A DNA stretch of 64,000 nucleotides from Tardiphaga sp. vice304 (GTDB lineage: Bacteria; Pseudomonadota; Alphaproteobacteria; Rhizobiales; Xanthobacteraceae), in NCBI RefSeq assembly GCF_007018905.1, contig NZ_CP041402.1, positions 1,600,001 through 1,664,000 of the forward strand. The letters run 5' to 3'. Positions 5,775 to 62,993 of the stretch are shown here, piece after piece (within the stretch, counting starts at the first letter, position 1; every line of letters starts with the position of its first letter). The notes under the pieces were generated by a model. It did not search any database. It saw only the letters and a list, made by a program, of their open reading frames with translations, and had not been told where the DNA came from. The translations under genes and the position numbers were made by a program.

Positions 5775-8122
<2,348 letters not shown>

Positions 8123-42274: not shown

Positions 42275-43624
42275 TCAGCGAGTCAGCCATTCTGCTGGTT
42301 GGTGGCCCGGGCCGTTTGAACAGTTGTTGCCGTCGCTAAAGGCCCAGGGCTTTCCGGGGCGAGTCAACCAAGCCAGAACAAACGTTAACGCCAGCGTGGG
42401 CAGGGCTGAGCCCCACTGGGGCGCCCATTTGGTGAGCGTATGGTAGAGCGCAATCCCGGCGAGCCACAGCAGTGCGGCCGTGATGTCTACTTTGCGCGAT
42501 GAAAGCTCAAACTCGGGTTTCCCCGAGCCGAGCCGGCCTAGTATCACGCCATACAGGGGCACAAAAACAGAGCTCAACATGAGCAAAAAGGGCTCGAGGC
42601 TGTGTATGGGAAGTACCAGTGCCAGACCCGTACACAGCACGGCCAGCAGCAGACCCCAGCGGCGGATGCTCCAAGCGGGCTTAAGGCTGTGCGCAGACAC
42701 CGAACCCGAATACACATCGCCATAGGCGTTGTCCAACTCGTCGATCAGGATCAAGCCAAGGGCAATTAGGCCGCCTTGTGCAAGCAGCAGGGCGCCGACG
42801 AGATGGGTGCCGGGCTCGGCTACGCTCACAACCATCACACCTAAAGTGTAGCACCAAATGTTGGCCATCGCATAACCCAACCAAGTTCCGCCAAAAGTGC
42901 CGCGGCGACTGCGGCCATAGCGGGCATAGTCGGCCACCAGTGGCAGCCAAGACACCGGCATGGCAATCACTAGATCCATCGCCGACATTAGGCCCATGCT
43001 GCCATTGCCCGGGCGAGCCCAAAACACATCAAACCCTTGAGCATGCAACTTCGAGCCAAATTGCCACGTCAGCCACAGCAGCGACGCAATCACCAGCGGC
43101 AGACCAAAGCGGCTCACAAAGCGGCGTACCAGTGTGACCATCGAGCCGGCCATCAGCGCCGTCAGCACGCCGCCCCACAGCAATGTGGTCAGCACCATGC
43201 CTGGTGGATCGTCGAGCGATAGGCCCAGGCTTTGCTTGCCAATGGCCGCAGTGCCCTCGCGCATGATTACCAGCTCAAATGTGGTCCAGCCAATCAGCTG
43301 CGCGATATTGAGCATCACAGGCAGCCGTGCAAACATGCTGCCGTAGGTGCGGTGCATCAATCCTGCACTCGACAGACCGCTGTCGCAGCCCAAGCTGGCG
43401 GTCCAAGCCAGCAGACCCCCACCGATCAGGGAGCCCAGCACAACGGCCATCGCGGCGTCGTGTGTGCCGACCGCAGGAACAAGATAGGCACCAATTTGCA
43501 CCACCAGCAAGCCAACGCCAAGGCTGAACCAGAGCGAAGCGTGCGTGTTCCAAGCGAAAATTCGGCTGGATGTCTCCAGAGGCGTCAATGCCTCGTTACT
43601 AGACGTTTTGGATATAGTTGCCAT
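42275..43624 (-). CDS. cytX: NCS1-family permease, probable hydroxymethylpyrimidine transporter CytX
   Basis: The 449-residue membrane protein has about 12 hydrophobic segments. The CytX-like features are ASLWFSLGVGLLVVQIGAYL, GLSSAGLMHRTYG and LNIAQLIGWTTFELVIM. NCS1 proteins of this type import the thiamin pyrimidine HMP. A fragment resembling the N-terminus of TenA (aminopyrimidine salvage) occurs at 50.3 kb next to a sequence similar to the upstream region here. No TPP riboswitch was seen upstream. The C-terminal 20 residues may be altered by a deletion. Confidence 0.72.
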   Translation of the reverse strand: MATISKTSSNEALTPLETSSRIFAWNTHASLWFSLGVGLLVVQIGAYLVPAVGTHDAAMAVVLGSLIGGGLLAWTASLGCDSGLSSAGLMHRTYGSMFARLPVMLNIAQLIGWTTFELVIMREGTAAIGKQSLGLSLDDPPGMVLTTLLWGGVLTALMAGSMVTLVRRFVSRFGLPLVIASLLWLTWQFGSKLHAQGFDVFWARPGNGSMGLMSAMDLVIAMPVSWLPLVADYARYGRSRRGTFGGTWLGYAMANIWCYTLGVMVVSVAEPGTHLVGALLLAQGGLIALGLILIDELDNAYGDVYSGSVSAHSLKPAWSIRRWGLLLAVLCTGLALVLPIHSLEPFLLMLSSVFVPLYGVILGRLGSGKPEFELSSRKVDITAALLWLAGIALYHTLTKWAPQWGSALPTLALTFVLAWLTRPGKPWAFSDGNNCSNGPGHQPAEWLTR

Positions 43625-43734
43625 CAGTAGGGTTCCAAGGTTGATCGATTGTTCGCCAGCAACTGATTGAAACGGGATTGATAAGCTGGACTTGCTTGAT
43701 GCCTCGGATTCCGATTGCCTCCTTTGCCGCAGCT
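43625..43734. other. cytX upstream region homologous to 50.35-50.39 kb
   Basis: On the reverse strand 43735-43690 reads AAAKEAIGIRGIKQVQ, similar to KKAIEIRGIEQVQEE at 50345-50395. It is a duplicated fragment of a coding end placed in front of cytX, and it is cut by the miniature element at 43735. Confidence 0.5.
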
Positions 43735-43855
43735 GGCATTATCACGTTAGCGCAGGCGTTTTCGGGTTTTGACGGAGCCCGCTAAGTTGAGAATGCTACA
43801 ACGCCATAGAATGAAACTGACGGAGTCTTGGAAATCTCGTTAACGTGGCAATGCC
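43735..43855. repeat. Miniature inverted-repeat element, copy 1 (121 bp)
   Basis: Ends are GGCATTATCACGTTAGCG and the complement of GGCATTGCCACGTTAACG. The inside is alignable with copy 2 at 44697-44828 (TTTTCGGGTTTTGACGGAGC, then CGGAGTCTTGGAAA). No coding capacity. The right end cuts a ferredoxin gene. The terminal sequence loosely resembles IS6-type ends; that link is inference. Confidence 0.65.
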
Positions 43856-43918
43856 ACCTCGACGCAGTCCATGTACTTGCACTTGATGCATTCGTCGTTG
43901 ACGATGTAGGTCAATCAG
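43856..43918 (-). pseudogene. Ferredoxin (FdxA-type) N-terminal fragment
   Basis: The reverse strand from about 43918 reads LTYIVNDECIKCKYMDCVEV and then enters the miniature element and stops. This is the beginning of a 7Fe ferredoxin (cluster motif C-x2-C-x3-C), truncated after about 20 residues. The expected ATG is a TTG here. Confidence 0.7.
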
Positions 43919-43948
43919 GCCTCCTTCCGGCAGATTGCAGAGGTCAAC

Positions 43949-44551
43949 TCATTCACCATGTGCGCCATCGCGATGCTCGCTCGTTGGCTGATAATGGACG
44001 CATAGAAGACCCGTGTCCTCGGGCTCGATCGGAACGCCGAACAGTAGACATTTGAGGGACGAGAGGGGTGCGTTCGTTTCGTCGCAGCAGGTTTTTCCAC
44101 CGAGGTGCGCGCAGTCCTGGCAAACCCCGAAGCGCCGATGTGCCCCACTCGCAGCGACAGTGGTCAGCACTTGGTGCAGGGCATGGTGCATCGCAGTCTG
44201 CTCTTCCGCGTCGAGCGAATTCACGGCGCGCACTAGAACTTCGAACGGATCGCGCGCAACCGCTTTATTACCTTTGCCCGTCAATCGGAGATTGACGCTT
44301 CGCCCATCCGCCGCGGATCGGCGTCGGACCAAGTACCCACCTGCCTCAAGCGCCTTAATGGTTTGCGTTGCCGTGCCACGGGTGGTCGCTTGAAACTCCG
44401 CGAATGCCGATGGATTCCGGGAGTATTGATTGGCGCGGGCGAAGTAGCGGAGCGCCATCCATTGGGCGGGACTGAGTTCGCCGTCATAGCCCTCGGCTTG
44501 CACGAGCCGCCCCACCAGTATCAGGAGTTCCGCCGTTTCACGCGCTAACAT
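43949..44551 (-). CDS. MarR-type regulator with C-terminal cysteine cluster (copy 1)
   Basis: The 200-residue protein has a MarR-like winged helix (LSPAQWMALRYFARANQ, TTRGTATQTIKALEAGGYLV, DGRSVNLRLTGKG) and an unusual 60-residue tail with six cysteines, FGVCQDCAHLGGKTCCDE then LKCLLFGVP and LLCVHYQ. All six are kept in copy 2 (51036-51614). The tail suggests an Fe-S cluster or zinc site. ATG 44551 is preferred over the longer start. It is divergent from sufB, and the promoter between them carries twin TTCGAA palindromes. Probable role: sensing iron-sulfur or redox status and controlling suf. Confidence 0.8.
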   Translation of the reverse strand: MLARETAELLILVGRLVQAEGYDGELSPAQWMALRYFARANQYSRNPSAFAEFQATTRGTATQTIKALEAGGYLVRRRSAADGRSVNLRLTGKGNKAVARDPFEVLVRAVNSLDAEEQTAMHHALHQVLTTVAASGAHRRFGVCQDCAHLGGKTCCDETNAPLSSLKCLLFGVPIEPEDTGLLCVHYQPTSEHRDGAHGE

Positions 44552-44590
44552 GATTGCCTCTTCGATGAATCCGTACAAGGATAATAGCGT

Positions 44591-44640
44591 TTCGAATTCA
44601 ACTTGACAACTGATTGGATGACAAATAGTTTTGTTTCGAA
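44591..44640. promoter_or_regulatory. Divergent promoter with twin TTCGAA palindromes (copy 1)
   Basis: TTCGAA occurs at 44591-44596 and 44635-44640, 44 bp apart. Between them is a rightward sigma70-like promoter, TTGACA (44603-44608), 17 bp, TAGTTT (44626-44631). The same arrangement with identical distances is at 51643-51692, upstream of the second regulator copy. Candidate operator of the MarR-type protein; rightward transcription would enter sufB. Confidence 0.65.
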
Positions 44641-44696
44641 AGTAATTATAGCGACAGAGAAGCTAATTAAGAACGACAGAAGAGAAATCTCGTACC

Positions 44697-44828
44697 GGTA
44701 TTGTCACGTTAGCGCAGCAAAAGAGTTTTCGGGTTTAGACGGAGCCCGTTAAGTGAATGAAAATGGTACAGCGCCATGGAACGAAACTGGCGGAGTTTGA
44801 AAGCAAATTCTCTCAACGTGACAATGCC
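44697..44828. repeat. Miniature inverted-repeat element, copy 2 (132 bp)
   Basis: Left end GGTATTGTCACGTTAGCG, right end the complement of GGCATTGTCACGTTGAG. Internal sequence is related to copy 1 (TTTTCGGGTTTAGACGGAGC, GAACGAAACTGGCGGAG). It sits in the leader region of sufB, 37 bp before the start codon. Together the two copies bracket the first marR-like gene. Confidence 0.65.
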
Positions 44829-44865
44829 AACCCGCGGTCCTTGAAACCGCAGCGGAGGAAGAAAA

Positions 44866-46344
44866 ATGCCGGCAGTTCAAGAGACCATCGAGCGAGTCCG
44901 TCACCTCAATGTCGACCAGTACAAGTACGGGTTCGTTACCGATATCGAGTCCGACAAGGCCCCGAAAGGGCTTTCTGAAGATACCGTTCGTTTCATCTCG
45001 GCCAAGAAGAACGAACCGGCCTGGATGCTGGCCTGGCGGCTGGAAGCCTATCGCCGCTGGCTGACCATGGAAGAGCCGACTTGGGCGCGTGTCCACTATC
45101 CGAGGATCGACTATCAGGATCTGTATTACTACTCGGCGCCGAAGCGCAAAGAGCTGGCTTCGCTCGACGAAGTTGATCCGGAAATCCTAAAAACCTACGA
45201 GAAGCTCGGAATTTCTCTTCGCGAACAGGAGATGCTCGCCGGTGTCGTGCGCCCCGAAAGCGAGCGCCGCGTAGCTGTAGACGCTGTGTTCGATTCTGTT
45301 TCGGTCGCAACGACGTTTCAGGCCGAGCTGAAAGCAGCTGGCGTCATTTTCATGCCGATCTCGGAAGCGATCCGTGAGCATCCGGACCTCGTGAAGAAAT
45401 ATCTCGGCACGGTGGTGCCGACCACCGACAATTATTTCGCGACATTGAATTCGGCGGTGTTCTCCGATGGCTCGTTCGTTTACTTGCCGCCGGGCGTGCG
45501 CTGCCCGATGGAGCTGTCGACTTACTTCCGCATCAACGAGGCAAACACCGGCCAGTTCGAGCGCACGCTGATCATCGCCGACAAGGGCGCTTATGTGAGC
45601 TATCTCGAAGGCTGCACTGCGCCGCAGCGCGACGAGAACCAGTTGCATGCCGCCGTGGTCGAACTCGTCACCCACGACGATGCCGAGATTAAATACTCGA
45701 CGGTGCAGAATTGGTATCCGGGCAACTCCGAAGGCAAAGGCGGCATCTACAATTTCGTCACCAAGCGTGGCGATTGCCGTGGCAAAAACTCAAAAATTTC
45801 GTGGACGCAGGTCGAGACGGGCTCGGCGATCACCTGGAAATATCCGAGCTGCATCCTGCGCGGCGACAATTCGCGCGGCGAGTTCTATTCGATCGCGATT
45901 TCCAACGGCTACCAGCAGGTCGATTCCGGCACCAAGATGATCCATCTGGGCAAGAACACCACCAGCCGGATCATCTCCAAGGGCATCGCGGCGGGCGTCT
46001 CGCAGAACACCTATCGCGGCCTCGTCACCGCGCATCGCAAGGCCACCGGCGCGCGTAACTTCACCGCCTGTGACTCGCTGCTAATCGGCGACAAGTGTGG
46101 CGCACATACCGTGCCCTATATCGAGGCGAAGAACTCTTCCGCGCTGTTCGAGCACGAAGCCACCACGTCGAAGATCTCCGAAGACGTGCTGTTCTATTGC
46201 GTGCAGCGCGGGCTGTCGCAGGAAGAGGCCGTCGGTCTCGTCGTCAACGGCTTCGTCAAGGACGTGCTGCAGCAACTACCGATGGAGTTTGCGGTCGAGG
46301 CGCAGAAGCTGATCTCGATCTCGCTGGAAGGGAGTGTTGGATGA
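44866..46344 (+). CDS. sufB: Fe-S cluster assembly scaffold SufB
   Basis: The 492-residue protein matches SufB over its whole length ([54 protein letters not shown] with the conserved Cys, [37 protein letters not shown]). With SufC and SufD it forms the SufBC2D scaffold that builds Fe-S clusters in the cytoplasm. GGAGGAAGAAAA precedes the ATG. It overlaps sufC by ATGA. The miniature element directly upstream probably replaced the original promoter. Confidence 0.97.
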
Positions 46345-47099
46345 CCGCGTTGCTCGAAGTCAAAAATCTCAAGGCTCAGGTCGAGGACAACGAGATTCTG
46401 CATGGGCTGACGCTCACCGTGAACGCGGGCGAAGTGCACGCCATCATGGGGCCGAACGGCTCCGGCAAATCGACGCTGAGCCATGTCATCGCCGGCAAGC
46501 CGGGCTATGAAGTTACCGGCGGCGAGATACTGTTCAAAGGCGAGGACCTCTTCGAAATGGCGCCGGATGTGCGCGCCGCCAAGGGCGTGTTCCTCGCGTT
46601 CCAGTATCCGGTGGAAATTCCGGGCGTGGCGACGATGACGTTCCTACGCACCGCGCTGAACGCCCAGCGCAAGTCGCGTGGAGAGAGCGAATTCTCGACG
46701 CCTGAATTTCTGAAGAAAGTCCGCGAGGTCGCGGGCAAGCTGAACATTCCGCAGGACATGCTGCGTCGTGGCGTCAACGTCGGCTTCTCAGGCGGCGAGA
46801 AGAAGCGCAACGAAATTTTGCAGATGGCACTGTTTGAGCCGAGCCTGTGCATCCTGGATGAAATGGATTCAGGCCTGGATATCGATGCGCTGCGCGTCGC
46901 CGCCGACGGCGTCAATGCTTTGCGCTCGAAGGATCGTGCGATGGTCATTATTACGCATTACCAGCGGCTGCTGAATTACATCATTCCCGACTTCGTGCAT
47001 GTGATGTCGAAAGGACGCGTCGTGAAGAGCGGCTGTAAGGAACTGGCGCTGGAGCTGGAGAAATCCGGTTACGCCCAGTTCGAAGACGTGGCGGCTTGA
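46341..47099 (+). CDS. sufC: Fe-S cluster assembly ATPase SufC
   Basis: The 252-residue ABC-type ATPase has Walker [10 protein letters not shown], signature [10 protein letters not shown] and Walker [14 protein letters not shown], and drives conformational change of SufBC2D. It overlaps sufB. The reading frame is intact and of usual length (250 aa). Confidence 0.97.
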
Positions 47100-47166
47100 C
47101 GCGTAAGCCGCAAAAGTGAGCGCCAGTTTTATAAGTGGAATACGCGTAATTGATAGAACGGTTTGA

Positions 47167-48498
47167 ATGATGAACGTTGCAGTGGCAAAGACAAACACCG
47201 GCCGGGCGCTTGGCGAAGCATTCACCGTCGAGCGCGAGCGGCTGCCCGGTTCGGGCATGGTCATGGATGCGCGACGGAAGGCGTTCGAGGATTTCGGGCG
47301 ATTGGGCCTGCCGCATCGCCGCGTCGAGGACTGGAAATACACGGACTTGCGCGTCTCTATGCGCGAGGTGCTTCCGCTCGCGGCGCCCCCGGATCAGGCG
47401 GCATTGACGCGAGCCGCTTCTGCCTTGAAGTCGCTGCCAGTGGAAGGCGCACGTCAACTTGTTCTGGTCGATGGCCTATTCGCGCCGCAGTTGTCCAATC
47501 TCGGAAAGCTGGAAAAGGGCCTTACCATCCGCGCGCTGCGCGATGTGCTGGAGTCCGGAAACGATGTTATCCGAAGTCAGCTTTTGCAGTCCGGCACTTC
47601 CTCTGATCCGATGATCGCGCTGAACACGGCGCTGATGACTGACGGCGTTGTCGTCGAGGTCGGCGATGGAGCTGAACTGGTGCAGCCGCTGCATATTGTC
47701 CATTTCGCCAGCGGCGGAAGCCCTGCGGCGATGGTCACACGCTCACTTCTGAGCGCCGGTGACAATACAAAGGTTACGCTGATCGAGAGTTTTATCGCGG
47801 CGGAAGGCGCAAAAGCCTATCAGGTCCACGACGCGCTGGTGGTATCCCTCGGCGCGAATGCGCGGCTCGATCATGTGCGTCTGATGCAAGATGCTCGCGA
47901 CGCCTTCAATATCTCGACTATCCTTGTTACGCTCGGTGCGAAATCCCATTTCAACACGTTCAACCTGACGGGCGGCGGCAACCTCAGCCGCTATCAGGCG
48001 TTCATCACGTTTGCGGGCGAGCATTCCCGCGTTGAGACCAACGGAGTCAACCTGCTCAACGGCACCCAGCATGGCGACACCACGCTGTTTCTCGATCATG
48101 CCGTGCCGAATTGCGCGAGCCGCGAAGTGTTCCGCGCGGTACTAGACGATCGCGCCCATTCGGTGTTTCAGGGCCGCATCGTCGTACGTTCCCATGCGCA
48201 GAAGACCGACGCCAAGATGATGACGCGCGCGTTGTTGCTCTCGGATGAGGCCGAATCCGAGAGCAAGCCCGAGCTGGAAATTTTCGCTGACGACGTGACC
48301 TGTGGTCACGGTGCGACGACCGGCGCGCTCGACCAAAGCCTATTGTTCTATCTGCGCGCGCGCGGCCTTTCCGAGAAGGAAGCGCAGGCGCTACTGATCG
48401 CGGCGTTTGTCGGCGAGGCGATCGAGTCCATCGTCGATGATAATCTGCGCGATATCGCTGTTGTCGTCGCGGAGCGATGGCTGGCGGCGCGAGGCTGA
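47167..48498 (+). CDS. sufD: Fe-S cluster assembly protein SufD
   Basis: The 443-residue protein has SufD features (RRVEDWKYTDLR at the start, EIFADDVTCGHGATTGALD with the conserved His, YLRARGLSEKEAQALLIAAF near the end). It is the SufB paralogue in the scaffold. ATG 47167 is used; an alternative is the adjacent ATG at 47170. The deleted sufS follows after 2 bp. Confidence 0.95.
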   Translation: MMNVAVAKTNTGRALGEAFTVERERLPGSGMVMDARRKAFEDFGRLGLPHRRVEDWKYTDLRVSMREVLPLAAPPDQAALTRAASALKSLPVEGARQLVLVDGLFAPQLSNLGKLEKGLTIRALRDVLESGNDVIRSQLLQSGTSSDPMIALNTALMTDGVVVEVGDGAELVQPLHIVHFASGGSPAAMVTRSLLSAGDNTKVTLIESFIAAEGAKAYQVHDALVVSLGANARLDHVRLMQDARDAFNISTILVTLGAKSHFNTFNLTGGGNLSRYQAFITFAGEHSRVETNGVNLLNGTQHGDTTLFLDHAVPNCASREVFRAVLDDRAHSVFQGRIVVRSHAQKTDAKMMTRALLLSDEAESESKPELEIFADDVTCGHGATTGALDQSLLFYLRARGLSEKEAQALLIAAFVGEAIESIVDDNLRDIAVVVAERWLAARG

Positions 48499-48500
48499 CG

Positions 48501-48619
48501 ATGCATCCGGCGGTCGCAAACGGCTCATACGATGTCGCGCGTGTGCGGGAGGACTTCCCGGCGCTGAGGTCGATACGCTGGCCGAGTCCATGGTCAAGGC
48601 ACGAGAGGTTTTCGCATGA
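48501..48619 (+). pseudogene. sufS: Cysteine desulfurase sufS, internal deletion
   Basis: ATG 48501 gives MHPAVANGSYDVARVREDFP, the expected start of SufS, but after about 21 codons the sequence jumps, in another frame, to AEVDTLAESMVKAREVFA-stop, the expected SufS C-terminus. Around 1.1 kb of coding sequence including the PLP lysine and active-site cysteine is missing. The suf operon therefore lacks its own sulfur donor; sufT still overlaps the remnant stop by ATGA. Confidence 0.85.
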
Positions 48620-49026
48620 GTGACGACACGCCCACCGTTGAAAAGCCCACCACAGAAAAGCTCGCGACTGGCGCGCAGCCCGCGCCGGCCGGAAAACCTT
48701 CCGCGCTGCCGGAGGCCGAGATCACCCGGCTCACCGACGAGATCGTGACCGCGCTCAAGACCGTCTACGACCCAGAAATTCCGGCCGACATCTACGAGAT
48801 CGGCCTGATTTACCGCATCGACATCGCCGACGACCGCACGGTGAAAGTCGACATGTCGCTGACCTCGCCCGGTTGCCCGTCGGCGCAGGAACTGCCGGTG
48901 ATGGTGGAGAACGCCGTTGCCAGCGTGGCGGGCGTCAAGGAAGCCAACGTGGCGGTGGTCTGGGACCCGCCCTGGGATCCGAGCCGGATGTCGGAAGAGG
49001 CGCGCGTCGTCCTCAACATGTGGTAA
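48616..49026 (+). CDS. sufT: SufT / DUF59 (MIP18-like) Fe-S assembly factor
   Basis: The 136-residue protein has a Pro/Ala-rich N-terminal tail (1-40) and a DUF59 domain (ALKTVYDPEIPADIYEIGLI, LTSPGCPSAQELP with the reactive Cys, VVWDPPWDPSRMSEEAR). SufT proteins assist Fe-S maturation. Its ATG overlaps the sufS remnant stop (ATGA), preserving operon coupling. Confidence 0.92.
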   Translation: MSDDTPTVEKPTTEKLATGAQPAPAGKPSALPEAEITRLTDEIVTALKTVYDPEIPADIYEIGLIYRIDIADDRTVKVDMSLTSPGCPSAQELPVMVENAVASVAGVKEANVAVVWDPPWDPSRMSEEARVVLNMW

Positions 49027-49113
49027 CCTAATCCTCGGCCTGAAGCCCCCACATTGAGGGAGCAATCGTTTGTTAAATTCAACCTGTTGCAATTTTCAAC
49101 TGGCTCGGAGAAC

Positions 49114-49488
49114 ATGATGGCCACAGCCCCGCTGAGACCCCAGATGATGCGGCTTACGGATGCTGCCGCAGACCGCATCAAATCCGTGATGGCTAATGCC
49201 GGCCGACCGATCGTTGGCGTGCGCGTGGGCGTCAAGAAGGGTGGCTGCGCCGGCATGGCCTACACCATGGAATATGCGGAGAAGGCCGGGCCGTTCGACG
49301 AGGTGGTCGAGGACAAGGGCGTGCGCGTCCTGATCGACCCCAAGGCGGTGCTGTTCCTGCTCGGCACCGAGATGGGCTACAAGGTCGAGAAATTGACGGC
49401 ACAGTTCGTGTTCAACAACCCGAACCAGACGTCCGCCTGCGGCTGCGGCGAATCGGTTCAACTCACTCCGGCGACCGAAACGCACTAA
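49114..49488 (+). CDS. sufA: A-type Fe-S carrier (SufA/IscA family)
   Basis: The 124-residue protein has the three A-type cysteines (KKGGCAGMAY and ACGCGES) and receives clusters from the SufBCD scaffold. ATG 49114 (ATGATG) follows GGAG; an upstream start would add 20 residues. It closes the suf operon; 76 bp later nuoI begins. Confidence 0.93.
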   Translation: MMATAPLRPQMMRLTDAAADRIKSVMANAGRPIVGVRVGVKKGGCAGMAYTMEYAEKAGPFDEVVEDKGVRVLIDPKAVLFLLGTEMGYKVEKLTAQFVFNNPNQTSACGCGESVQLTPATETH

Positions 49489-49564
49489 TTTCGACAAGGC
49501 GTCTTTCGATTGACGCGGACGACATCCGCGAGATGTTGCCGCCTTCCGGCGAAATGAGGACATC

Positions 49565-50053
49565 ATGAGTGTCAACGTCACAGCCCGTTCGCTTTTGCTG
49601 ACCGAATTCGTGTCGGCGTTTTTTCTCGCCATGCGTTATTTCTTCAAGCCGAAGCCGACGCTGAACTATCCGTTCGAGAAGGGGCCGATCTCGCCGCGCT
49701 TCCGCGGTGAACATGCACTACGCCGTTACCCCAATGGCGAGGAGCGCTGCATCGCGTGCAAGCTTTGCGAGGCGATCTGCCCGGCGCTGGCCATCACCAT
49801 CGAGGCCGGTCCGCGCCGCAATGACGGAACCCGCCGCGCCGTGCGTTACGACATCGATATGGTGAAGTGCATCTATTGCGGATTGTGCCAAGAGGCATGT
49901 CCCGTCGATGCCATTGTCGAGGGGCCAAATTTCGAATTCGCGACCGAGACGCGCGAGGAGCTGTACTATGACAAGGCGAAACTTCTCGCCAATGGCGATC
50001 GCTGGGAGCGCGAGATTGCGAAAAGCATAGAACTTGATTCGCCCTACCGGTGA
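49565..50053 (+). CDS. nuoI: NADH-quinone oxidoreductase subunit I
   Basis: The 162-residue protein is a complete NuoI with two 4Fe-4S motifs ([12 protein letters not shown] and [13 protein letters not shown]) and the C-terminal [15 protein letters not shown]. In complex I it carries clusters N6a/N6b. Here it stands without the other nuo genes except a nuoJ fragment, directly after suf, so it is a duplicated or translocated copy. Start ATG 49565 follows ATGAGGACATC. Confidence 0.95.
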
Positions 50054-50062
50054 GGTGAGGGC

Positions 50063-50262
50063 ATGATCCTTCCCGCGCTGTTCTTCTATCTGTTCGCCGG
50101 CGTATGCGTTGCATCCGCCGGTGAATGGTGATTGCGTCGCGCAATCTCGTGCACTCGGTGCTCTTTCTCATTCTGGCGTTGGTCAACGCATCCGGCCTGT
50201 TCGTGCTGATGGGCGCCGAATTCCTCGCAATGATCCTCGTCGTGGTTTATGTCGGTTAAGTA
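50063..50262 (+). pseudogene. nuoJ: NADH-quinone oxidoreductase subunit J, truncated and frameshifted
   Basis: ATG 50063 begins MILPALFFYLFAGVCVAS, the start of NuoJ. A one-base change at about 50120 shifts the frame, after which [20 protein letters not shown] and [12 protein letters not shown] follow and the gene ends at a TAA. The normal protein continues for over 100 residues; the rest is missing where the reverse-strand operon end begins. Confidence 0.85.
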
Positions 50263-50345
50263 GGGACAGGTGCTCGGTGTAGGCGCGCCACTCGGCGGAC
50301 GCCTCTGTCTTCAGGCGCTCAAAGAAGCTCTTGGTCTCCTCCTGG
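50263..50345 (-). pseudogene. TenA-like N-terminal fragment
   Basis: The reverse strand reads QEETKSFFERLKTEASAEW and RAYTEHLS before running into nuoJ sequence. This resembles the first 25 residues of TenA-type thiaminase II (FERLK-EASAEW-AYT-HPFV). Everything after is lost. The identification rests on a short stretch. Confidence 0.4.
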
Positions 50346-50776
50346 ACTTGCTCGATGCCTCGGATCTCGATTGCCTTCTTTACGAAGCAACGGGCACCAG
50401 ATGCGGACGCGAGCTTCCATAGAATGAAAGCACACGCCGCAGCTCGATCGCGTGGAAGGCACACGCGCCTCCGGGCTCGTCGGATCGCCAGAAAAGCCCC
50501 CAGAACCTGGGCCGCCAAGAAGAACCCGCAGACGAGAATGCCGGGCCGCATCTTGCTGACGCAAAGTGCAGCCAACATCAGGCGACCGGCGGCGACGTCG
50601 TCCTCCATGAGGGTCTCAAGTGCCTCACCGATAAGATGAATTGTCTGCGACGGCTCAAGTCCGAGGCGGTCGGCGAGTTCTTTGTAAGTCGTGAGGTTCC
50701 CGGTCTGGGCCTGATCTATGAGAGCTTGGCGGAGACGTTCTTTCAACATGCAACTCCGATCAAGTTCCTCGCTCAA
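50346..50776 (-). pseudogene. HTH-containing hypothetical protein (paralogue of 62994-63416), frameshifted
   Basis: The start reads MLKERLRQALIDQAQ, NLTTYKELADRLGLEPSQTI and HLIGEALETLMEDDVAAGR, similar to TYQELAKALGLTPPNTI in the 62994-63416 protein, then CGFFLAAQVLGAF. A shift near 50490 moves the matching part (GDPTSPEAR) to another frame. The TTG at 50776 overlaps the DUF6522 stop; ATG 50749 is an alternative. The family looks like a small winged helix with an unassigned tail. Confidence 0.55.
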
Positions 50777-51039
50777 GAGCTGTCCTCGCTGACGACCTCG
50801 CCGGTCGTCGTGACAATAAGCCGGAATACCCGATCTCGATAACGAAAGGTCAGGCGGAAGCGGCCCTCGTCCTCACCGATACCGCGCTCGCTCGTGCTGT
50901 AGACGATGCCGCGTCGCATCTCGACCATGAGCTGCTCAACCGGCAGTTTGAGACCCCGGGCGACCGGCGTCGCATCGACCTCGACGGCGCCCTCCGGCAC
51001 GCGGATGCTGGTGGCGATCTCATTCGCCGTGTCGGTCAT
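50773..51039 (-). CDS. DUF6522 family protein
   Basis: The 88-residue product (MTDTANEIATSIRVPEGAVE, LKLPVEQLMVEMRRGIVYS, RFRLTFRYRDRVFRLIV) matches the small DUF6522 pattern. ATG 51039 overlaps the stop of the marR-like gene, and its own stop overlaps the next start, so the three genes form a coupled operon. Function unknown; placement suggests a role in the regulon of the MarR-type protein. Confidence 0.7.
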   Translation of the reverse strand: MTDTANEIATSIRVPEGAVEVDATPVARGLKLPVEQLMVEMRRGIVYSTSERGIGEDEGRFRLTFRYRDRVFRLIVTTTGEVVSEDSS

Positions 51040-51614
51040 GAGCGCGCTCGCTCCTTGGCTGAAAGTTTGACGCACGGGAGTTCCGTTTCGTCAGGCTGCA
51101 TTGGAACGCCGAGCAGCAGGCATTCGAGGACCGATGAAGGCATGTTTGTTAAGCTGCAGCAGATGTCTCCGCCGATGTAGCAGCAATCCCGGCAGACGCC
51201 AAAGCGCCGATGCGACCCGCTCGCGGCTACGGCAGTCAGCACTTGTTGCAGGGCGTGAACGGCGGCGCGCTGTTTTGTATCGGGGGCCGCGACTCCCCGC
51301 ATTAGAACTTCGAACGGGTCGCGGCGAGTGCATCGCGACCATTGTCGGTCAGTTGCAGACTGACGCTGCGTCCATCGATCTCCGACTTCTGCCGGTGCAG
51401 GTAGCCGCCGGCCACAAGCGCTTTGATGCCTTTGTGTCGCGGTGCCGCGTGTGATCGACTGCTCAGCGAAGGCTGAGGGAGTGCGGGAGAGCTTGGCCCC
51501 GGCGAAGAAGCGGAGCGCCATCCATTGGGCCGGGCTCACCTCGCCGTAATAGCCTTCCCCCTGCATGATCCGCGCTGCTTGCAGCAGAAGGGCCGCCGTT
51601 TCGCGTGCTGACAT
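51036..51614 (-). CDS. MarR-type regulator with C-terminal cysteine cluster (copy 2, internally frameshifted)
   Basis: ATG 51614 after GGAAAGG gives a protein collinear with copy 1: YYGEVSPAQWMALRFFAGAK, then the tail FGVCRDCCYIGGDICCSL, LECLLLGVP and LPCVKL, with all six tail cysteines kept. Between about 51447 and 51325 the reading frame is shifted, so about 40 residues of the recognition-helix/wing region are replaced by unrelated sequence; the expected GIKALVAGGYLHRQKSE is in the neighbouring frame. A second indel restores the frame. DNA binding is probably impaired. Confidence 0.65.
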   Translation of the reverse strand: MSARETAALLLQAARIMQGEGYYGEVSPAQWMALRFFAGAKLSRTPSAFAEQSITRGTATQRHQSACGRRLPAPAEVGDRWTQRQSATDRQWSRCTRRDPFEVLMRGVAAPDTKQRAAVHALQQVLTAVAASGSHRRFGVCRDCCYIGGDICCSLTNMPSSVLECLLLGVPMQPDETELPCVKLSAKERARS

Positions 51615-51642
51615 GTTGACCTTTCCGACAAAGTAGTAGTCG

Positions 51643-51692
51643 TTCGAAATCATATTGACAAGTGGTCTGGCGGTTGTTAGTTTGGTTTCGAA
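51643..51692. promoter_or_regulatory. Divergent promoter with twin TTCGAA palindromes (copy 2)
   Basis: TTCGAA at 51643-51648 and 51687-51692 (44 bp apart) bracket TTGACA (51655-51660), 17 bp and TAGTTT (51678-51683). All distances equal those at 44591-44640. Rightward transcription would enter the gene at 51709 and then the Nfu gene; leftward, the marR-like operon. Confidence 0.65.
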
Positions 51693-51708
51693 ATGAGTTG
51701 AGGCGGGA

Positions 51709-52176
51709 ATGAACACCAGTCCAGTTGTCGACGATGCCGTCGAGCTCATGGTTCGGCTGGCTGTCACTGATCCCCACGTAACAGCAGCCGAGCTCGCCCT
51801 AGTGGCCCGTTCGCCGTCATCCACGGAGGCGCTGTTGGCTCGATTGCGGAGCGGCAATCCACAGGCGCGGTTACCGCTTGGCGCGACCGGCTGCGTTGAT
51901 CTCGGCTGCGGATATTTTCGAAGCCGTGAGCGGGGGGAAGTGCGACCCGGCCTTGCCGGCGATATCTCCGGATCTCCGACCCGGGGACGCGGTAATCGGG
52001 GTAAATCTGCTTCAAGCGGCGCTCAAGACCTATATTCTGATTTTCCTGCGCGGGGTCAGGCTCGCCGACCTGCTGCCTGACGCAGCGACCACACCTGCCG
52101 ACCGCACTCATTCGCCGAGCCGTCCCATCCCTCATCGGATGAGCTCTGCACTGATCAAGCAGACAACAAAGTGCTG
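51709..52176 (+). pseudogene. Unidentified protein, frameshifted
   Basis: ATG 51709 has a good GAGGCGGGA site (MNTSPVVDDAVELMVRLAV, HVTAAELALVARSPSST). Near 51880 the coding character moves to the next frame (LISAADIFEAVSGGKCDPAL, GVNLLQAALKTYILIFLRG). The pieces suggest one gene of about 140 residues broken by an indel. I do not recognise the family. It is the first gene behind the twin-TTCGAA promoter and lies 25 bp before the Nfu gene. Confidence 0.4.
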
Positions 52177-52200
52177 AAGAGCGCAGCGAAGGGATATGCG

Positions 52201-52752
52201 ATGCTCATCGAAACCGAAGCGACACCCAACCCAGCAACCTTGAAATTCAATCCTGGTCGGATGGTCGGCGGCGACTGTACACACCAGTTTTCCGATCGCT
52301 CCGCTGCAGCCGGCTCGCCGCTTGCCCGGCGCCTGTTCGCCATCGACCAGATTACGGCAGTCTTCTTCGGACCCGATTTCATCACAGCGACCAAGACAGA
52401 CGCAGTCGACTGGCCGACCGTCAAGCCCGCGGTGTTCGGTGCAATTATGGAGCACTACGTCGCAGATGATCCTCTGTTTGATGTCGAAACGGCAGAGACC
52501 GGTCACTCGGCAGCAGAGGAAGACAGCGATCTCGTCAACCAAATAAAAGAGCTTCTGGACACGCGCGTACGCCCCGCCGTCGCTCAAGACGGTGGCGACA
52601 TCGTCTTCCGCAGCTTCCAAGACGGGGTTGTCTATCTGCATCTGCAAGGCAGTTGCGCCGGATGCCCGAGCTCGACCGCGACGCTCAAGACTGGCATCGA
52701 AAACATGCTGCGTCACTACTTGCCGGAGGTCACGGAGGTTCGTTCAGTTTAG
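52201..52752 (+). CDS. NifU family (Nfu-type) Fe-S carrier protein
   Basis: The 183-residue protein has an Nfu N-terminal domain (MLIETEATPNPATLKFNPG, AVFFGPDFITATK) and a C-terminal NifU domain with LQGSCAGCPSSTATLK, whose CxxC binds a 4Fe-4S cluster. Nfu proteins deliver clusters to targets such as lipoyl synthase, which is also encoded (broken) at 60.6 kb. ATG 52201 begins the canonical sequence. Confidence 0.93.
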   Translation: MLIETEATPNPATLKFNPGRMVGGDCTHQFSDRSAAAGSPLARRLFAIDQITAVFFGPDFITATKTDAVDWPTVKPAVFGAIMEHYVADDPLFDVETAETGHSAAEEDSDLVNQIKELLDTRVRPAVAQDGGDIVFRSFQDGVVYLHLQGSCAGCPSSTATLKTGIENMLRHYLPEVTEVRSV

Positions 52753-52999
52753 CCGGCATTTCTCACGGTCACAAGGAATAGAGCCGCTCATCGGAATTTC
52801 TTACGACTGGTCAAGGAATTGAAGGCCAGGAGAAATGCAGGTTAGAGAGCCTGTCGGCGGCAGGGGCTGGTTGCTAACTAAGCTGACCTGTGGGTTCTGG
52901 AACGTCGTGTAGCAGGCAACGAAACAAGACGCGTGCCATGCCACGGGCACTGGACCGCAGAGAGGGCACTCGCTCAATCACCAATATGGACTGCAACTC

Positions 53000-53296
53000 A
53001 TGATCGAGCAGAGCGCGATGGAGACGGACAGTTATCCGAAGTTTCATAACGAGGCCGGAGCGCCAATCGTGCGCATTGGCTGACGTGAGTTCAAGTGCAT
53101 TGCGACAATGCCGCCACAAGATCATCCGCACGTCTATCTTAACATGGGTAATGCCAATGAGATCGTTTGCCCCTATTGCGCGTCGCTATTCCGCTTCGAT
53201 CCTAGTTTGGGCTTACGCGAAGCAGAGCCAGCGTCTTGCGGCTACAGTGATGCCGATTTCGAGGCTTGGGCGCGACAAGTACAAACCACAGCGTAA
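53000..53296 (+). pseudogene. Zinc-finger domain protein with in-frame TGA
   Basis: From ATG 53000: MIEQSAMETDSYPKFHNEAG, APIVRIG, then TGA at 53081-53083, then REFKCIATMPPQDHPHVYL, GNANEIVCPYCASLFRFDP. The parts before and after the TGA are in one frame and together match the small zinc-finger proteins related to the NDUFS6 family (FHN...IRIG-REF-C...DHPHVYL-MG...VCPYC). A sense codon (probably TGC) has become TGA. Restart at ATG 53108 would give a 62-residue zinc-binding part. Confidence 0.7.
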
Positions 53297-53379
53297 CCCG
53301 CTGCCAAGCCGAGCCATTGCGCGTCAGCGTGCGGCCTCTGGCTGCACGCTGACGCGTGAGCGTAGGAGCCACTAGATCC

Positions 53380-54408
53380 ATGAACGCCCAGCTGTCACCA
53401 GGCCTAACCAACACATCAATGGTCGACCCTTTCGGGCGCACCGTCAGCTATCTGCGCGTGTCGGTGACCGATCGCTGCGACTTTCGCTGCGTCTACTGCA
53501 TGTCGGAACACATGACCTTTCTGCCAAAGAAGGAGCTCCTGACGCTCGAGGAACTCGATCGGCTGTGCAGTGCATTCGTGGCGAAAGGCGTGAAGAAGCT
53601 TCGGATCACTGGCGGCGAGCCGCTTGCGCGCAAGAATATCCTTTGGCTGTTTGAGGCCCTTTCCCGGCACCTGAAAACCGGCGCGCTTGAAGAGTTGACG
53701 CTGACCACGAATGGTAGCCAGCTCCCGACGTATGCGCAGGCCCTCAAGGATTGCGGCGTTCGGCGCATCAATATCTCGCTTGACACGCTGCAGCCCGACC
53801 GTTTCCGCGCCATCACGCGGTGGGGAGATTTCTCGCAGGTAATGGCGGGCATCGAAGCCGCGGAGAAGGCGGGGCTCAAGATCAAGCTCAATGTTGTCGC
53901 CCTCAAGGGCGTCAACGAGGACGAGATCGAGGACCTGATCCAATTCGCGCACGGCCGCGGCATGGACCTGACGCTGATCGAAACGATGCCGCTCGGCGAC
54001 ATCGACGGCGACCGCACCGACCAGTACCTGCCGCTCTCCATCATCCGGGCGCGGCTGATGGACCGATGGACGCTGACCGACATCCCTTACAAGACCGGCG
54101 GCCCGGCGCGCTACGTCGAGATTAAGGAGACCGGCGGTTGCGTCGGCTTCATCACGCCAATGACGCACAACTTCTGCGAAAGCTGTAATCGCGTGCGCCT
54201 CACCTGCACGGGCATCCTCTACATGTGCCTCGGTCAGGATGACGCGGCAGATCTGAGAAAATCGCTTCGCGCGAACGGTGACGATGTGGCACTGTTCGAT
54301 GCCATCGACGAGGCGATCTCGCGCAAGCCCAAGGGCCATGACTTCGTCATCGACCGGCGCACGAAGAAGCCAGCCGTTGCGCGGCATATGTCCGTGACCG
54401 GGGGGTGA
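53380..54408 (+). CDS. moaA: GTP 3',8-cyclase MoaA
   Basis: The 342-residue radical SAM enzyme makes the first molybdopterin intermediate. The SAM cluster motif CDFRCVYC is near residue 33, ITGGEPL follows, and the C-terminal cluster ligands are in [23 protein letters not shown] 53380 follows TAGGAG. Intact. As a two-cluster enzyme it fits the Fe-S theme of the island; the other moa genes are not in the window. Confidence 0.95.
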
Positions 54409-54505
54409 TTGTGGGCGCAGCCATGTCAGGTCGAAAACGACTGTGGGCTGGCCGAACGGCGATGTCGCGCGTGACAGTTTGACGGAGCAAAGGAGACGAG
54501 TTCGC

Positions 54506-54792
54506 ATGGCCATGGATGCACTGGAGATCGAGCGCCTCATCAAGGCCGGACTGCCGGATGCCCAGGTGATAATCCGGAATCTGGCTTGTGACGGCGACCA
54601 TTACGAGGCGCATGTCGGCTCGAAGCTCTTAAAGACAAGACGCGCGAGCAACAGCACAAGACAGTCTACGACGCGCTTGAGGGCCGCATGGGCAGTGCGC
54701 TGCATGCGCTCGCACTGCAGACCTCTATATATACCCAAAGACGCTTAAACGCCGATCAGGCCGTAGCACCGAGTCACGGAGAAAGGAACGCC
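54506..54792 (+). pseudogene. bolA: BolA family protein, frameshifted
   Basis: ATG 54506 starts MAMDALEIERLIKAGLPDAQ, VIIRNLACDGDHYEAHVGS, a BolA/Fra2 N-terminus. At about 54632 one base is missing, and the family continuation KDKTREQQHKTVYDALEGR and MGSALHALALQTS is in the next frame. That frame has no stop before the glutaredoxin gene and runs in frame into it. BolA2-type proteins pair with monothiol glutaredoxins, the next gene. Confidence 0.8.
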
Positions 54793-55179
54793 ATGAGCGA
54801 GCAGGAAGCCCACGATTTGATCCGCAAGCAGGTCACCAGTAATGACATCGTGCTGTTCATGAAGGGCACCAAGCAATTCCCGCAGTGCGGGTTCTCGGGC
54901 CAGGTCGCACAGATCCTTGGCCATCTGGGCGTCGACTACAAAGACATCAACGTGCTCGACGATCCAAGAGTCCGCGAGGGTACCAAGTCCTACACGAACT
55001 GGCCCACAATCCCGCGGCTCTACGTCAAAGGCGAGTTCGTCGGCGGCTGCGATATCGTCCGCGAAATGTTTCAATCGGGCGAGCTGCAGGAGCTGTTAAA
55101 CCAAAAGGGAGTGCCGACGGCACGGCGCGTGGCCGGGGCCGAAATCCTATCCATGGGCGGAGTCCTGCCGCCTGATTGA
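54793..55179 (+). CDS. grxD: Monothiol glutaredoxin, Grx4 family
   Basis: The 128-residue protein has the CGFS active site (FPQCGFSGQVAQIL), WPTIPRLYVKGEFVGGCDI and the family start EAHDLIRKQVTSNDIVLFMKG. Grx4-type proteins bind a 2Fe-2S cluster with glutathione and BolA. The C-terminus is about 15 residues longer than usual (ARRVAGAEILSMGGVLP). ATG 54793 follows GGAGAAAGGAA. Confidence 0.93.
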   Translation: MSEQEAHDLIRKQVTSNDIVLFMKGTKQFPQCGFSGQVAQILGHLGVDYKDINVLDDPRVREGTKSYTNWPTIPRLYVKGEFVGGCDIVREMFQSGELQELLNQKGVPTARRVAGAEILSMGGVLPPD

Positions 55180-55240
55180 CGGCCAGCCGCAAGGCCACCG
55201 TCCCTCGCAACCCGTATCGCAAAAAAGGGAATCACGAGCC

Positions 55241-55573
55241 ATGACGACCACATCCATCACCGTCACCGAGCGCGCGGTCGAGCGCATCGCGCAGATCGTC
55301 TGCAACGAACCTGACAAAAAGATGTTTCGGATCAGCGTCGAGGGCGGCGGCTGTTCGGGCTTCGAGTACCGCTTCGATCTCGTGCCCAAGGCGGAGCCCG
55401 ACGACGCCGTGATCGAGCACGCTGATGCGAAGGTCCTGGTCGATTCGCTCTCGCTCGTCTATCTGGCGGGCTCGGAGATCGACTACGTCGACGACCTGAT
55501 AAGCGCGTCGTTCAAGATCAAGAATCCGAACGCGACCGCCGCCTGCGGCTGCGGCACGAGCTTCTCGGTCTGA
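55241..55573 (+). CDS. A-type Fe-S carrier (ErpA/IscA-like)
   Basis: The 110-residue protein has the A-type cysteines in EGGGCSGFEYRF and AACGCGTSFSV. It is closer to ErpA-type carriers than the SufA at 49.1 kb. It is 61 bp after grxD and 64 bp before the second bolA, so grxD-erpA-like-bolA probably form one operon. Confidence 0.92.
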   Translation: MTTTSITVTERAVERIAQIVCNEPDKKMFRISVEGGGCSGFEYRFDLVPKAEPDDAVIEHADAKVLVDSLSLVYLAGSEIDYVDDLISASFKIKNPNATAACGCGTSFSV

Positions 55574-55637
55574 AGCCGATCCGTCACGGGCACACTCGCG
55601 TGCTCGACACTCGCGCCAATGCTTGAGAGCTTCCTGA

Positions 55638-55912
55638 ATGTCTATCGCGGCGACCATCCGAGAGAAACTGATGATCGCGCTCCGGCCGACCCGGCTCGAC
55701 GTGATCAACGAGTCGCATGTGCATGCGGGCCACCGGAGCTCGCCCGGCACGGGCGAAAGCCATTTCCGCGTGCTCGTGATGTCGCCCGAGTTCGCCGGCA
55801 AATCGCGGGTCGACCGCCACCGGCTGGTCAACGACACGCTCGCCGCCGAGTTGAAAGGCCGGGTCCACGCCCTCACCATCCAAGCTTACGCGCCGGCGGA
55901 AAAGATGCCGGA
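55638..55912 (+). pseudogene. bolA: BolA family protein, C-terminus altered
   Basis: ATG 55638 gives MSIAATIREKLMIALRPTRL, HAGHRSSPGTGESHFRVLV, RLVNDTLAAELKGRVHALTI, a full BolA domain. The usual stop after QAYAP is missing and the frame runs on into unrelated sequence until 56189, near the IS630 element. The domain itself may still fold, so it could be functional with a foreign tail. Confidence 0.75.
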
Positions 55913-56190
55913 GGGTCAAAAAATTGAAACTGCCGTAAAGGCGGCAGTTGTCCGAGCTTCTTTGTTCGTACGGAGGTGCCGGAAGATCGTAGCAGCCGTG
56001 AAGAAGTTCGTCGACCTGCACAACAAGCTTGCCGCGGGCGCCGGTGCAGGGACAACAGGTCGCAAGCGACATCGGACACTCAAGCCCTTTTTTGCCGAAC
56101 CAGATTTATCAGGCTGCCCGCCAGCACCATTTCCACCTCGCGCGGCGTCATCGGGCGCTCGGTCTTCTACCAACGGCCGCGGGTTTTGAC
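55913..56190. other. Junction segment between bolA and IS630
   Basis: No gene is supported. A reverse-strand piece reads MTPREVEMVLAGSLINLV and stops soon after, perhaps a coding remnant. The forward continuation of the bolA frame has no family resemblance. Confidence 0.35.
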
Positions 56191-57240
56191 TCATTTTGGG
56201 ATTCCCAAATCGGGGAAACTCTGACTCGATTTGATTTGACGGCAAAGGAGCTCCGTGCGGCGGCGAGCCGAGAGAAGAATGGTTCCGCGGCGCGGCGGAT
56301 GCTGGCTCTTGCCATGGTGCTCGATGGGGCGGATCGGAAGTCGGCGGCGGAGAGCTGCGGCATGGATCGCCAGACCCTGCGGGATTGGGTGCATCGCTAC
56401 AACGCCGAGGGCTTGCGCGGCCTGCACGATTTGACGACGCCAGAGGTCCCAAGTCCCGATCCGGCCCGTCATGGGGTGGTGCGCTGGCGGCGTGTGGATT
56501 TGCGTGACGAGTTGGAACGACGGTTCGGCTTCGTGCTGCACGAACGCTCGGTCGGTAAGCTGCTGGCCAAGCTCGGCCACCGTCGGTTGTCGGTGCGTCC
56601 GCGCCATCTCCAAGCCGACGAAGAAGCCCCGGGAGGCGTTTAAAAAAACTCTGCCGCAAAGATCGCGATTGCGGCGCGGCTCCCCGACGACGCCAAAGAC
56701 AAACCCCATCGAAATCTGGTTCCAGGACGAGGCTCGAATCGGCCAGCAGGGGACGCTAACCCGGGTTTGGGCCAGACGGAGAACCCGACCGCGTGCGCCG
56801 CGTGACCAACGCTACCAGTGGGCCTACATCTTCGGCGCCGTTTGTCCGCAGCGCCGCGCAACGGCGGCGCTCGTCCTGCCCGTCGCCGATACCGATGCAA
56901 TGTCCATGCATCTCGCCGAAATCGGCCGCCGTGTCGCACCGGGAGCGCATGCTGCGCTCGTCATCGATGGCGCAAACTATCACGTCGCGGCGCGCCTCGC
57001 CGTTCCAGACAACATCACGCTCGTCCGCCTGCCGCCCTACGCTCCTTAGCTAAACCCAGTCGAGAATGTCTGGGAATATCTCCGCCGCAACAAGCTCCCA
57101 TCACCGTATTCGAAAGCTACGACGACATCGTCGACAAGTCCTGCGCCGCCTGGCGCTTCTTCGCCGATGACCCCGAACGCGTGGCCTCAATCACATCCAG
57201 AACTTGGGCGACGGTCAATCCCTTAGAGTCTGACTCATAA
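56190..57240 (+). pseudogene. IS630-family transposase, broken
   Basis: The element begins near the inverted sequence GACTCATTTTGGGATTCCC. The coding parts are ARRMLALAMVLDGADRKSAA (HTH), RDELERRFGFVLHERSVGK, a shift near 56640, IEIWFQDEARIGQQGTLTR (first catalytic D), AALVIDGANYHVA, then a TAG at 57048 after LPPYAP where LNPVE-NVWEYLRR should follow. One shift and one stop, plus a late shift, inactivate it. Confidence 0.85.
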
Positions 57241-57255
57241 TGAATTCGTTTGATT

Positions 57256-58080
57256 TCAGGCTTTTGCAAGCCGTCTTATAAGGACGCGAATGTGAGCGAC
57301 GAACGCCCAGGCAACGGCGCTGGCGATTGTGGTCTCGAAGTCCTTTGCCAATCTGCGGCAGCGACCGAGCCATCCGAACGTTCGTTCGACGACCCATCGG
57401 CGCGGTAGGATTTCGAAGCCCTGCTCCCTGTCGGATCGTTTTATGATTTCTATCGTCCAATTGCCGATGCGCTTCAAAGCTTGACGCAGCTTATCTCCGG
57501 CATAGCCACCATCGGCAAAAATATGGCGCAGCCACGGATAGCGATAACGTATCGAAGCAAGAACGCACGGGGCACCATCACGGTCCTGAATGCTGGCTTC
57601 GTGCACGACCAGCCCGACCAAGTTTCCTTGCGTGTCGGTGACGATGTGGCGCTTGCGGCCCTTGATTTTCTTACCTGCATCATAGCCCCGGGGGCCGCCG
57701 CTTTCCGTGGTTTTCACCGACTGGCTGTCAATCACTCCGGCCGTTGGGCTCGCCTCTCGGCCAGCCGCCTCGCGCGAGGCCATCACGAGCGTGTAGTTCA
57801 GCGACGCAAACAGTCCGCCGCGCGACCACGCGTAGAAATAGCCCTGCACCGTCGAGTAGGGCGGGAAATCCTTGGGCAACTGCCGCCATTGGCAGCCGGT
57901 CGACGCAATATACAGGATCGCATCCATCACCGTTCGCATATCTGTCGCACGCGGGCGACCGAGCGCCGAAGCAGGCGGCAGAAGCGGCTCCATCACAAAC
58001 CACTCGGCATCCGTCGTATCGCTTTCATATCGCAAGCTCGCCCGCCTATAGTGTCGGCGGGTGATTTCAGTCCAGACCAT
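57256..58080 (-). CDS. IS5-family transposase
   Basis: The 274-residue protein is a full DDE transposase of the IS5 group (LLPPASALGRPRATDMR, AILYIASTGCQWRQLPKDFP, GVIDSQSVKTTESGGPRGYD with first D, FADGGYAGDK with second D, RRWVVERTFGWLGRCRRL with E). Intact, probably mobile. It abuts the end of the IS630 remnant. Confidence 0.93.
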   Translation of the reverse strand: MVWTEITRRHYRRASLRYESDTTDAEWFVMEPLLPPASALGRPRATDMRTVMDAILYIASTGCQWRQLPKDFPPYSTVQGYFYAWSRGGLFASLNYTLVMASREAAGREASPTAGVIDSQSVKTTESGGPRGYDAGKKIKGRKRHIVTDTQGNLVGLVVHEASIQDRDGAPCVLASIRYRYPWLRHIFADGGYAGDKLRQALKRIGNWTIEIIKRSDREQGFEILPRRWVVERTFGWLGRCRRLAKDFETTIASAVAWAFVAHIRVLIRRLAKA

Positions 58081-58174
58081 CGTGCTCTCCCTCGAATCTT
58101 CGCAAATCCGAAGGAATCACAACTGGCTGAAATCACTCAGCTTCTTTTTCAGTCAGCCTCTGAGGCCTTTGGTA

Positions 58175-58345
58175 TTACTTATCGGCCTTTTTGTCCTCGA
58201 CATTCCGAAACGGTGCCATTTGACTGTCAGGAAAGCTGCGCGTGATCGTTAAGGGATCGCTCGCAGGAAAGGTTTGTTCAAGTTCTCGATTAAGCTGTTC
58301 GTGGAGGTCCTGGTGCTGCTCGCGCGTCTCCTTTTTCTTCGGCAT
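58175..58345 (-). CDS. Small hypothetical protein
   Basis: The 56-residue product (MPKKKETREQHQDLHEQLN, LEQTFPASDPLTITRSFPD) is charged. The FPASDPLTIT block is typical of small rhizobial proteins of unknown role. ATG 58345 is preferred; a longer frame upstream lacks a ribosome site. Confidence 0.55.
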   Translation of the reverse strand: MPKKKETREQHQDLHEQLNRELEQTFPASDPLTITRSFPDSQMAPFRNVEDKKADK

Positions 58346-58623
58346 AGCGGTAACCTCGGTTTCAGAACTCAAACGATAAAGCAATAATAAGCGCTTGGTA
58401 CTATAGACGCAAACGTAGATCATGCTTCCAGCGCGATTTCAAATTAGCGCTGACGCCAAGTCGCCGGCAAAATGACGTTCCCTCGTTTCACTATTTGACG
58501 TAAAAGGGCTCTCCCGCCATCGCCACCTCCAGGCCGCTCCGCCCGATGGCCAGCAATGGTTTTCCCCGGCACAACGAAGCGCTCCATATGCAGGGGATTG
58601 CTCACGCCGCTACCGGACCGGCT
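58346..58623. other. Non-coding stretch
   Basis: AT-richer segment at 58360-58450, otherwise unremarkable. It probably contains the promoter of the leftward small gene. Nothing else is recognised. Confidence 0.3.
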
Positions 58624-62987: not shown

Positions 62988-62993
62988 GCCTCT

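Follow-up and report, generated by a model that had tools for sequence, protein, structure and literature searches.

The two TTCGAA palindromes that stand before the second suf gene set of Tardiphaga sp. vice304 probably form the paired operator of a divergent, self-regulating locus, governed by a subfamily of MarR regulators with a four-cysteine tail. Comparison with related genomes shows the sites in the window (the whole 64,000-nucleotide stretch analyzed here) as a diverged form of the 15-bp pseudo-palindrome RTWKCGANTCGMWAY, a predicted operator that is paired upstream of members of this subfamily (Table 1).

Table 1. Features of the marR1–suf region and of the second twin site, in window coordinates.
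Feature	Position	Strand	Basis and remarks
Second inverted-repeat copy, adjoining the end of marR1	43735..43856	+	78% identity
marR1, MarR-family regulator, 200 aa, CX2C-Xn-C-X15-C tail	43949..44551	-	PF12802, PF01047; four invariant Cys in a 20-row alignment
marR1 promoter, TTGTCA-N17-TATTAT	44581..44609	-	10/12; consensus scan
Putative operator B, AATTCGAAACGCTAT	44584..44598	-	Within the marR1 promoter, between -35 and -10; 13/15 to consensus
Weak rightward promoter-like pair, TTGACA-N17-TAGTTT	44603..44631	+	-10 at 3/6; read from the sequence, not reported by the scan
Putative operator A, CTTTCGAAACAAAAC	44628..44642	-	Overlaps the end of the weak rightward -10; 12/15 to consensus
Inverted-repeat (MITE-like) element between switch and sufB	44697..44829	+	133 bp; copies elsewhere, ends read
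suf leader	44827..44865	+	Also before the other suf set of the genome
sufB, second copy	44866..46344	+	TIGR01980 above cut-off; 91% identical to other copy
sufC (named by eye)	46344..47099	+	88% identical to gene of other suf set
sufD	47167..48498	+	TIGR01981 above cut-off; 68% to other copy
marR2, paralogue with two frameshifts	51060..51615	-	Profile match and three-frame reading
Twin site of marR2	51643..51692	+	Scores 13/15 and 12/15; lacks a marR-ward promoter of 9/12 or better
nfu-like gene	52171..52752	+	Nfu_N and NifU domains above cut-off

The TTCGAA hexamers lie at 44591–44596 and 44635–44640 and again at 51643–51648 and 51687–51692, and each pair encloses TTGACA-N17-TAGTTT with equal distances at both places. 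A first-pass annotation had pointed out these twins and their matching distances, and both the positions and a genome-wide pattern search bear it out: the 5.79-Mb genome has the whole 50-bp pattern at two places and its reversed control at none. By itself, the hexamer shows no clear enrichment in the window (30 occurrences against 21.6 ± 4.5 expected, with 30 reached by 6 of 100 shuffles). The equal distances had been taken as a sign of selected or recently shared spacing. The two places agree at 35 of 50 bases (6 of 17 in the spacer; with the four named hexamers set aside, 11 of 26), and the adjoining genes, marR1 and marR2, are paralogous, with blocks of 72% and 76% nucleotide identity; the equal spacing thus reflects shared descent, and the two places are not independent. 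Selection as the cause was replaced by descent on the grounds of this paralogy and of spacing variants, since the hexamers are 43 rather than 44 bp apart in the marR3 copy and in most Bradyrhizobium copies.

All three marR genes of this genome lie within 21 kb. The first is intact, with its four cysteines, its promoter, and both sites, and carries a MarR winged-helix domain (PF12802 at 42.4 bits, cut-off 27; PF01047 at 26.2 bits, cut-off 24.6). In marR2, profile positions 61–96 match in another frame, and according to the three-frame reading the two frameshifts cancel; the second place (51643–51692) is that of a decaying marR copy. The earlier statement that a MarR-type regulator lies left of both places therefore holds for an intact gene at the first place and for a frameshifted one at the second. 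Its counterpart, Fe–S genes to the right of both, is correct for suf, and the frames to the right of the second place contain no Pfam family above cut-off. The third copy, marR3, lies just past the window between fdxA and a divergent rpoH, an arrangement also present on a Bradyrhizobium plasmid (fdxA and marR divergent from rpoH). Its protein is 90% identical to that of marR1, and a 789-bp alignment around the two genes, 92% identical, stops at the twin site. We also observed a DUF6522 gene directly behind a tailed marR at two distant loci (window 50773–51075 and L005 2034–2420).

The best-conserved promoter of the locus runs leftward into marR and contains one of the sites within its -35/-10 spacer. 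We compared 18 close upstream regions, namely the three own copies, G081, 13 scan loci (12 titled Bradyrhizobium, of which one is a MAG and six belong to B. erythrophlei GAS478, plus an Alphaproteobacteria MAG), and one plasmid. A marR-ward promoter of at least 9/12 that begins with TTGTCA and has a site in its spacer is found in 16 of them, the exceptions being marR2 and L034. An alignment of 13 regions, read by eye, has TTGTC invariant and both sites readable in 12, with the distant G121 excepted. The rightward promoter, which had been called a good one, was not confirmed: its -10 TAGTTT agrees with TATAAT at only 3 of 6 positions, it shares its -35 with the marR1 promoter, and the consensus scan finds the leftward promoter instead. 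A search of Rfam gave zero matches in 43600–44900.

To describe the operator, we set the consensus RTWKCGANTCGMWAY by eye on 26 more distant loci, where pairs such as ATATCGAGTCGATAC and ATAGCGAGTCGCTAC are seen, and then froze it, with a threshold of 13/15. The form of the operator core in the clade of the own copies is TTTCGAAA. At the threshold, at least two sites are present at 16 of the 26 training loci, the other 10 lack a pair, and shuffled sequences give none. The own copies score 12 and 13 (marR1 and marR3) or 13 and 12 (marR2), so that none of the three shows two sites at the frozen threshold and all pass only at 12. In the close set as a whole, 13 of 18 regions have pairs at 13, a number that rises to 16 when the threshold is lowered to 12 (shuffles at 12: mean 0.36, largest 3), and two exact TTCGAA lie 43, 44, or 47 bp apart in 15 of the 18; L034 has no pair, and L038 and L046 have TTGCGAA in one site.

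The frozen consensus was also applied to loci that had not shaped it. A class-wide search of 385 genomes, 62 of them with a match, supplied 45 full-length loci new to the consensus, of which 30 have at least two sites, 10 have one, and five have none; shuffles gave no pairs and on average 1.36 loci with at least one site. Among 17 tail-less MarR controls (a set that omits four further tail-less matches and one stop-broken match of the same search), none has two sites and two have one. A phylum-wide search at E 1e-38, with matches in 19 of 398 genomes, added 16 loci, seven with at least two sites, four with one, and five with none, which leaves 9 of 16 without a pair at 13. Each of the seven loci from outside the class carries a site, and four of them carry two. 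In one branch, genus g25, eight loci (L008, L009, L027, L028, L202, L203, L218, and L220) have the tail but zero sites at 13. Start-to-start spacing ranges from 22 to 57 bp across the family, and 49 of the 57 values fall within 43–57 bp (compiled by hand, two three-site loci left out). As judged from sequence, the paired sites are restricted to the tailed MarR subfamily, which extends over several classes of the phylum. The marR1 protein would also resemble MarR regulators in general in having a palindromic operator in its own promoter region. The earlier proposal that the regulator binds the palindromes is thus likely on comparative grounds, with pairs upstream of the four-cysteine subfamily and absent at the 17 tail-less genes.

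The tail fits CX2C-Xn-C-Xn-C in 44 of the 45 hold-out proteins and in 0 of the 17 controls; overall, 84 of 86 proteins fit the pattern, in 79 the last two cysteines enclose exactly 15 residues, and the four cysteines are invariant in the 20-row alignment. None of the best 60 of 73 matches in the PDB extends past profile position 146 of 185, and the tail alone has no match among solved structures at E up to 1. Six models of named MarR groups in NCBIfam match marR1, each with a score well under its cut-off (the best is 35.2, where 200 is required). An Rrf2 domain is absent, as Pfam at E up to 1 gives only MarR and winged-helix families, and PHROGs returned weak matches to families of unknown function. 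The tail may form a zinc site, an Fe–S cluster, or a thiol switch. A literature search, which covered few subscription papers, found no naming of a four-cysteine MarR subfamily, no paper on a MarR regulator with fdxA and rpoH, and none on a MarR gene divergent from RpoH in Alphaproteobacteria.

The neighborhood of the tailed marR genes points to a recurrent divergent pairing with rpoH. In tblastn searches of 87 stretches, many of which span only ~1.5 kb per side (L032 is the own marR2 locus and L108 repeats L027), rpoH is present in 42, a secreted protein in 21, fdxA in 12, and sufB in none; all four are absent from the 17 control stretches. Frames resembling rpoH form a cluster in 12 of 14 stretches (the 13 scan loci and the plasmid), and fdxA is found in eight. 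The secreted protein (~250 aa, without Pfam or NCBIfam match) is encoded divergently from marR at L018, L020, L022, L024, and other loci, with a redoxin-like gene following it at L020, and at one locus the tailed marR faces a cytochrome P460 gene. All three distant RpoH proteins tested pass the cut-off of NF005693, and the own RpoH and that of L006 fit NF005143 better; we take the former to be RpoH2-like and the latter RpoH1-like. An RpoH-regulated gene for Fe–S protein metabolism is reportedly the subject of a paper on Sinorhizobium meliloti.

A tree of 85 proteins (L025 dropped; L033, L046, and marR2 not entered; L004 labeled by eye) places marR1 and marR3 as sisters (99/89) within a 15-row clade (100/93), with rpoH as the facing gene in 13 rows. 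Another 28 rows form a clade of their own (100/95) that faces rpoH throughout, and the rpoH label requires five changes on the tree against 28.8 in shuffles. Given this placement among rpoH-facing rows, rpoH is likely the older partner of the marR1/marR3 copy and suf a derived one.

From the end of the twin site at 44640, 56 bp lead to the 133-bp inverted-repeat element, which is followed by the leader and sufB, 224 bp from operator A. A third copy of the element (G000:C1:1666040-1666147, 84% identity, one end cut) follows rpoH. In terms of MITE features, the ends of the element are inverted, its three copies lie close to marR1 and marR3, and a target duplication was not seen by eye; a search of plasmids gave no match. 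A match to this region was obtained in 89 of 149 family genomes, mostly to the suf leader (query 241–291), and we infer that these leader matches also precede sufB. We likewise infer that the marR1 block arrived flanked by inverted-repeat elements. The switch before suf looks like a capture, the suf-facing copy being a single case so far among the compared loci, and control of suf by the switch in this genome is plausible.

The genes to the right form an Fe–S gene island, which runs from window 44866 to 64000 and on to ~8400 of L082 (G000:C1:1668400). It contains the suf set, nuoI, nfu, moaA, a glutaredoxin, an Fe–S biosynthesis protein, lipA, fdxA, rpoH, an Mrp-like gene, and a second nfu. 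Second copies elsewhere in the genome exist for sufBCD, the SUF-associated gene (67%), sufA (68%, by eye), lipA (72%), and nuoI (93%), and the other suf set also has cysteine desulfurase-like genes (by eye). FAD-binding and flavodoxin pieces at 58624–59310 and 59578–60228 resemble parts of a single reductase gene that has been broken. A repeat of 2.56 kb with 99% identity (window 5619–8181 and L082 17437–19999, ~72 kb apart) has, by eye, the look of an IS21-type element, and the island may be bounded by it.

Such a setting raises the possibility, which we take seriously without favoring it, that the switch is a vestige here, one of several mobile, duplicated marR–operator blocks, and that suf is transcribed unaffected from its own or an element-borne promoter. 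Three marR copies within 21 kb, one of them frameshifted, would fit this, as would the inverted-repeat copies beside marR1, the 2.56-kb repeats around the region, and a second promoter-like pair (9/12) at 44797–44825, closer to sufB than the switch. B. erythrophlei GAS478 has six dispersed marR loci (L035, L038, L039, L040, L043, and L046), which suggests mobility. The intactness of marR1, with cysteines, promoter, and both sites preserved, argues against a vestige.

The distribution of sites bears on how far control by the regulator might extend. The exact 15-bp pattern was found 17 times in 10 of 12 genomes, in every case beside a tailed marR gene; of the two genomes without an exact site, G032 has a marR with sites of 14/15, and G134 has no marR among the matches listed. 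With one mismatch allowed, the clade form occurs at five places in the own genome, all at the three marR loci (reversed control: one per strand). In six relatives, all 19 zero-mismatch places are at marR loci and the one-mismatch places are mostly scattered, with 0 to 7 places per genome for reversed controls. With the exact sites of the scanned genomes all at marR loci, these data suit a local one-locus switch rather than a broad regulon, although weaker sites may exist elsewhere. The original idea of a MarR-controlled Fe–S regulon, with twin TTCGAA sites before several operons, draws on suf and nfu to the right of two own copies and on fdxA beside marR3 and in 12 of the 87 stretches; we consider it improbable, as the sites are confined to marR loci in the scanned genomes, sufB is missing from all 87 stretches, and marR2 is broken. 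CGA/TCG-core palindromes suit several regulator families, and binding by a redox, iron, or SOS type regulator with marR as one target among others is highly improbable, given that the exact sites in 12 genomes stay with marR even where the divergent gene differs and that pairs accompany the four-cysteine tail and not the 17 other MarR genes.

Under the preferred reading of an autoregulated twin operator, a MarR dimer would bind each 15-bp pseudo-palindrome. As one site lies in the -35/-10 spacer of the marR promoter and the other overlaps the end of the divergent -10, bound dimers would repress transcription either way. Oxidation, metal loss, or Fe–S damage at the cysteines would release the repressor. 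The marR–operator block was duplicated in this genome, leaving one copy that faces the second suf operon and may control it. A more far-reaching reading, which we hold less likely than not, is that this unnamed subfamily, with a metal- or Fe–S-binding tail, is a dedicated one-locus switch for RpoH, with RpoH1-like and RpoH2-like partners in separate branches, and that inverted-repeat elements carried the block before the duplicate suf set, wiring Fe–S assembly to it. If the tail holds a metal or an Fe–S cluster, a single short circuit would tie damage of this kind to a stress sigma factor. For rpoH genes in many Alphaproteobacteria, the results supply a likely regulator and an operator that can be tested, and the 15-bp pattern, with 17 of 17 exact sites in 12 genomes beside marR, is specific enough to search DNA for the switch.

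Several known systems share parts of this arrangement. IscR, RirA, and other Rrf2 regulators control Fe–S and iron genes, and the present protein recalls them as a cysteine-bearing regulator near suf that possibly senses metal or a cluster; it differs in having a MarR domain instead of Rrf2, and suf is not its usual neighbor. The OhrR-type repressors, thiol-switch MarR proteins (PMC8226930), may be similar in their release via cysteine chemistry; here, however, the cysteines lie in an extra tail and four are invariant, and only one of 20 alignment members matches an OhrR model at 1e-5. The HucR/uricase locus, in which a MarR dimer on a palindromic operator between divergent genes controls both the regulator and its neighbor, is likewise a divergent autoregulated MarR locus, described with a single site as opposed to two here (PMC5487221). 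Compared with HucR-type regulators, the proteins described here carry a four-cysteine tail that lies beyond the solved structures among the matches listed, and their divergent partner is often a sigma factor.
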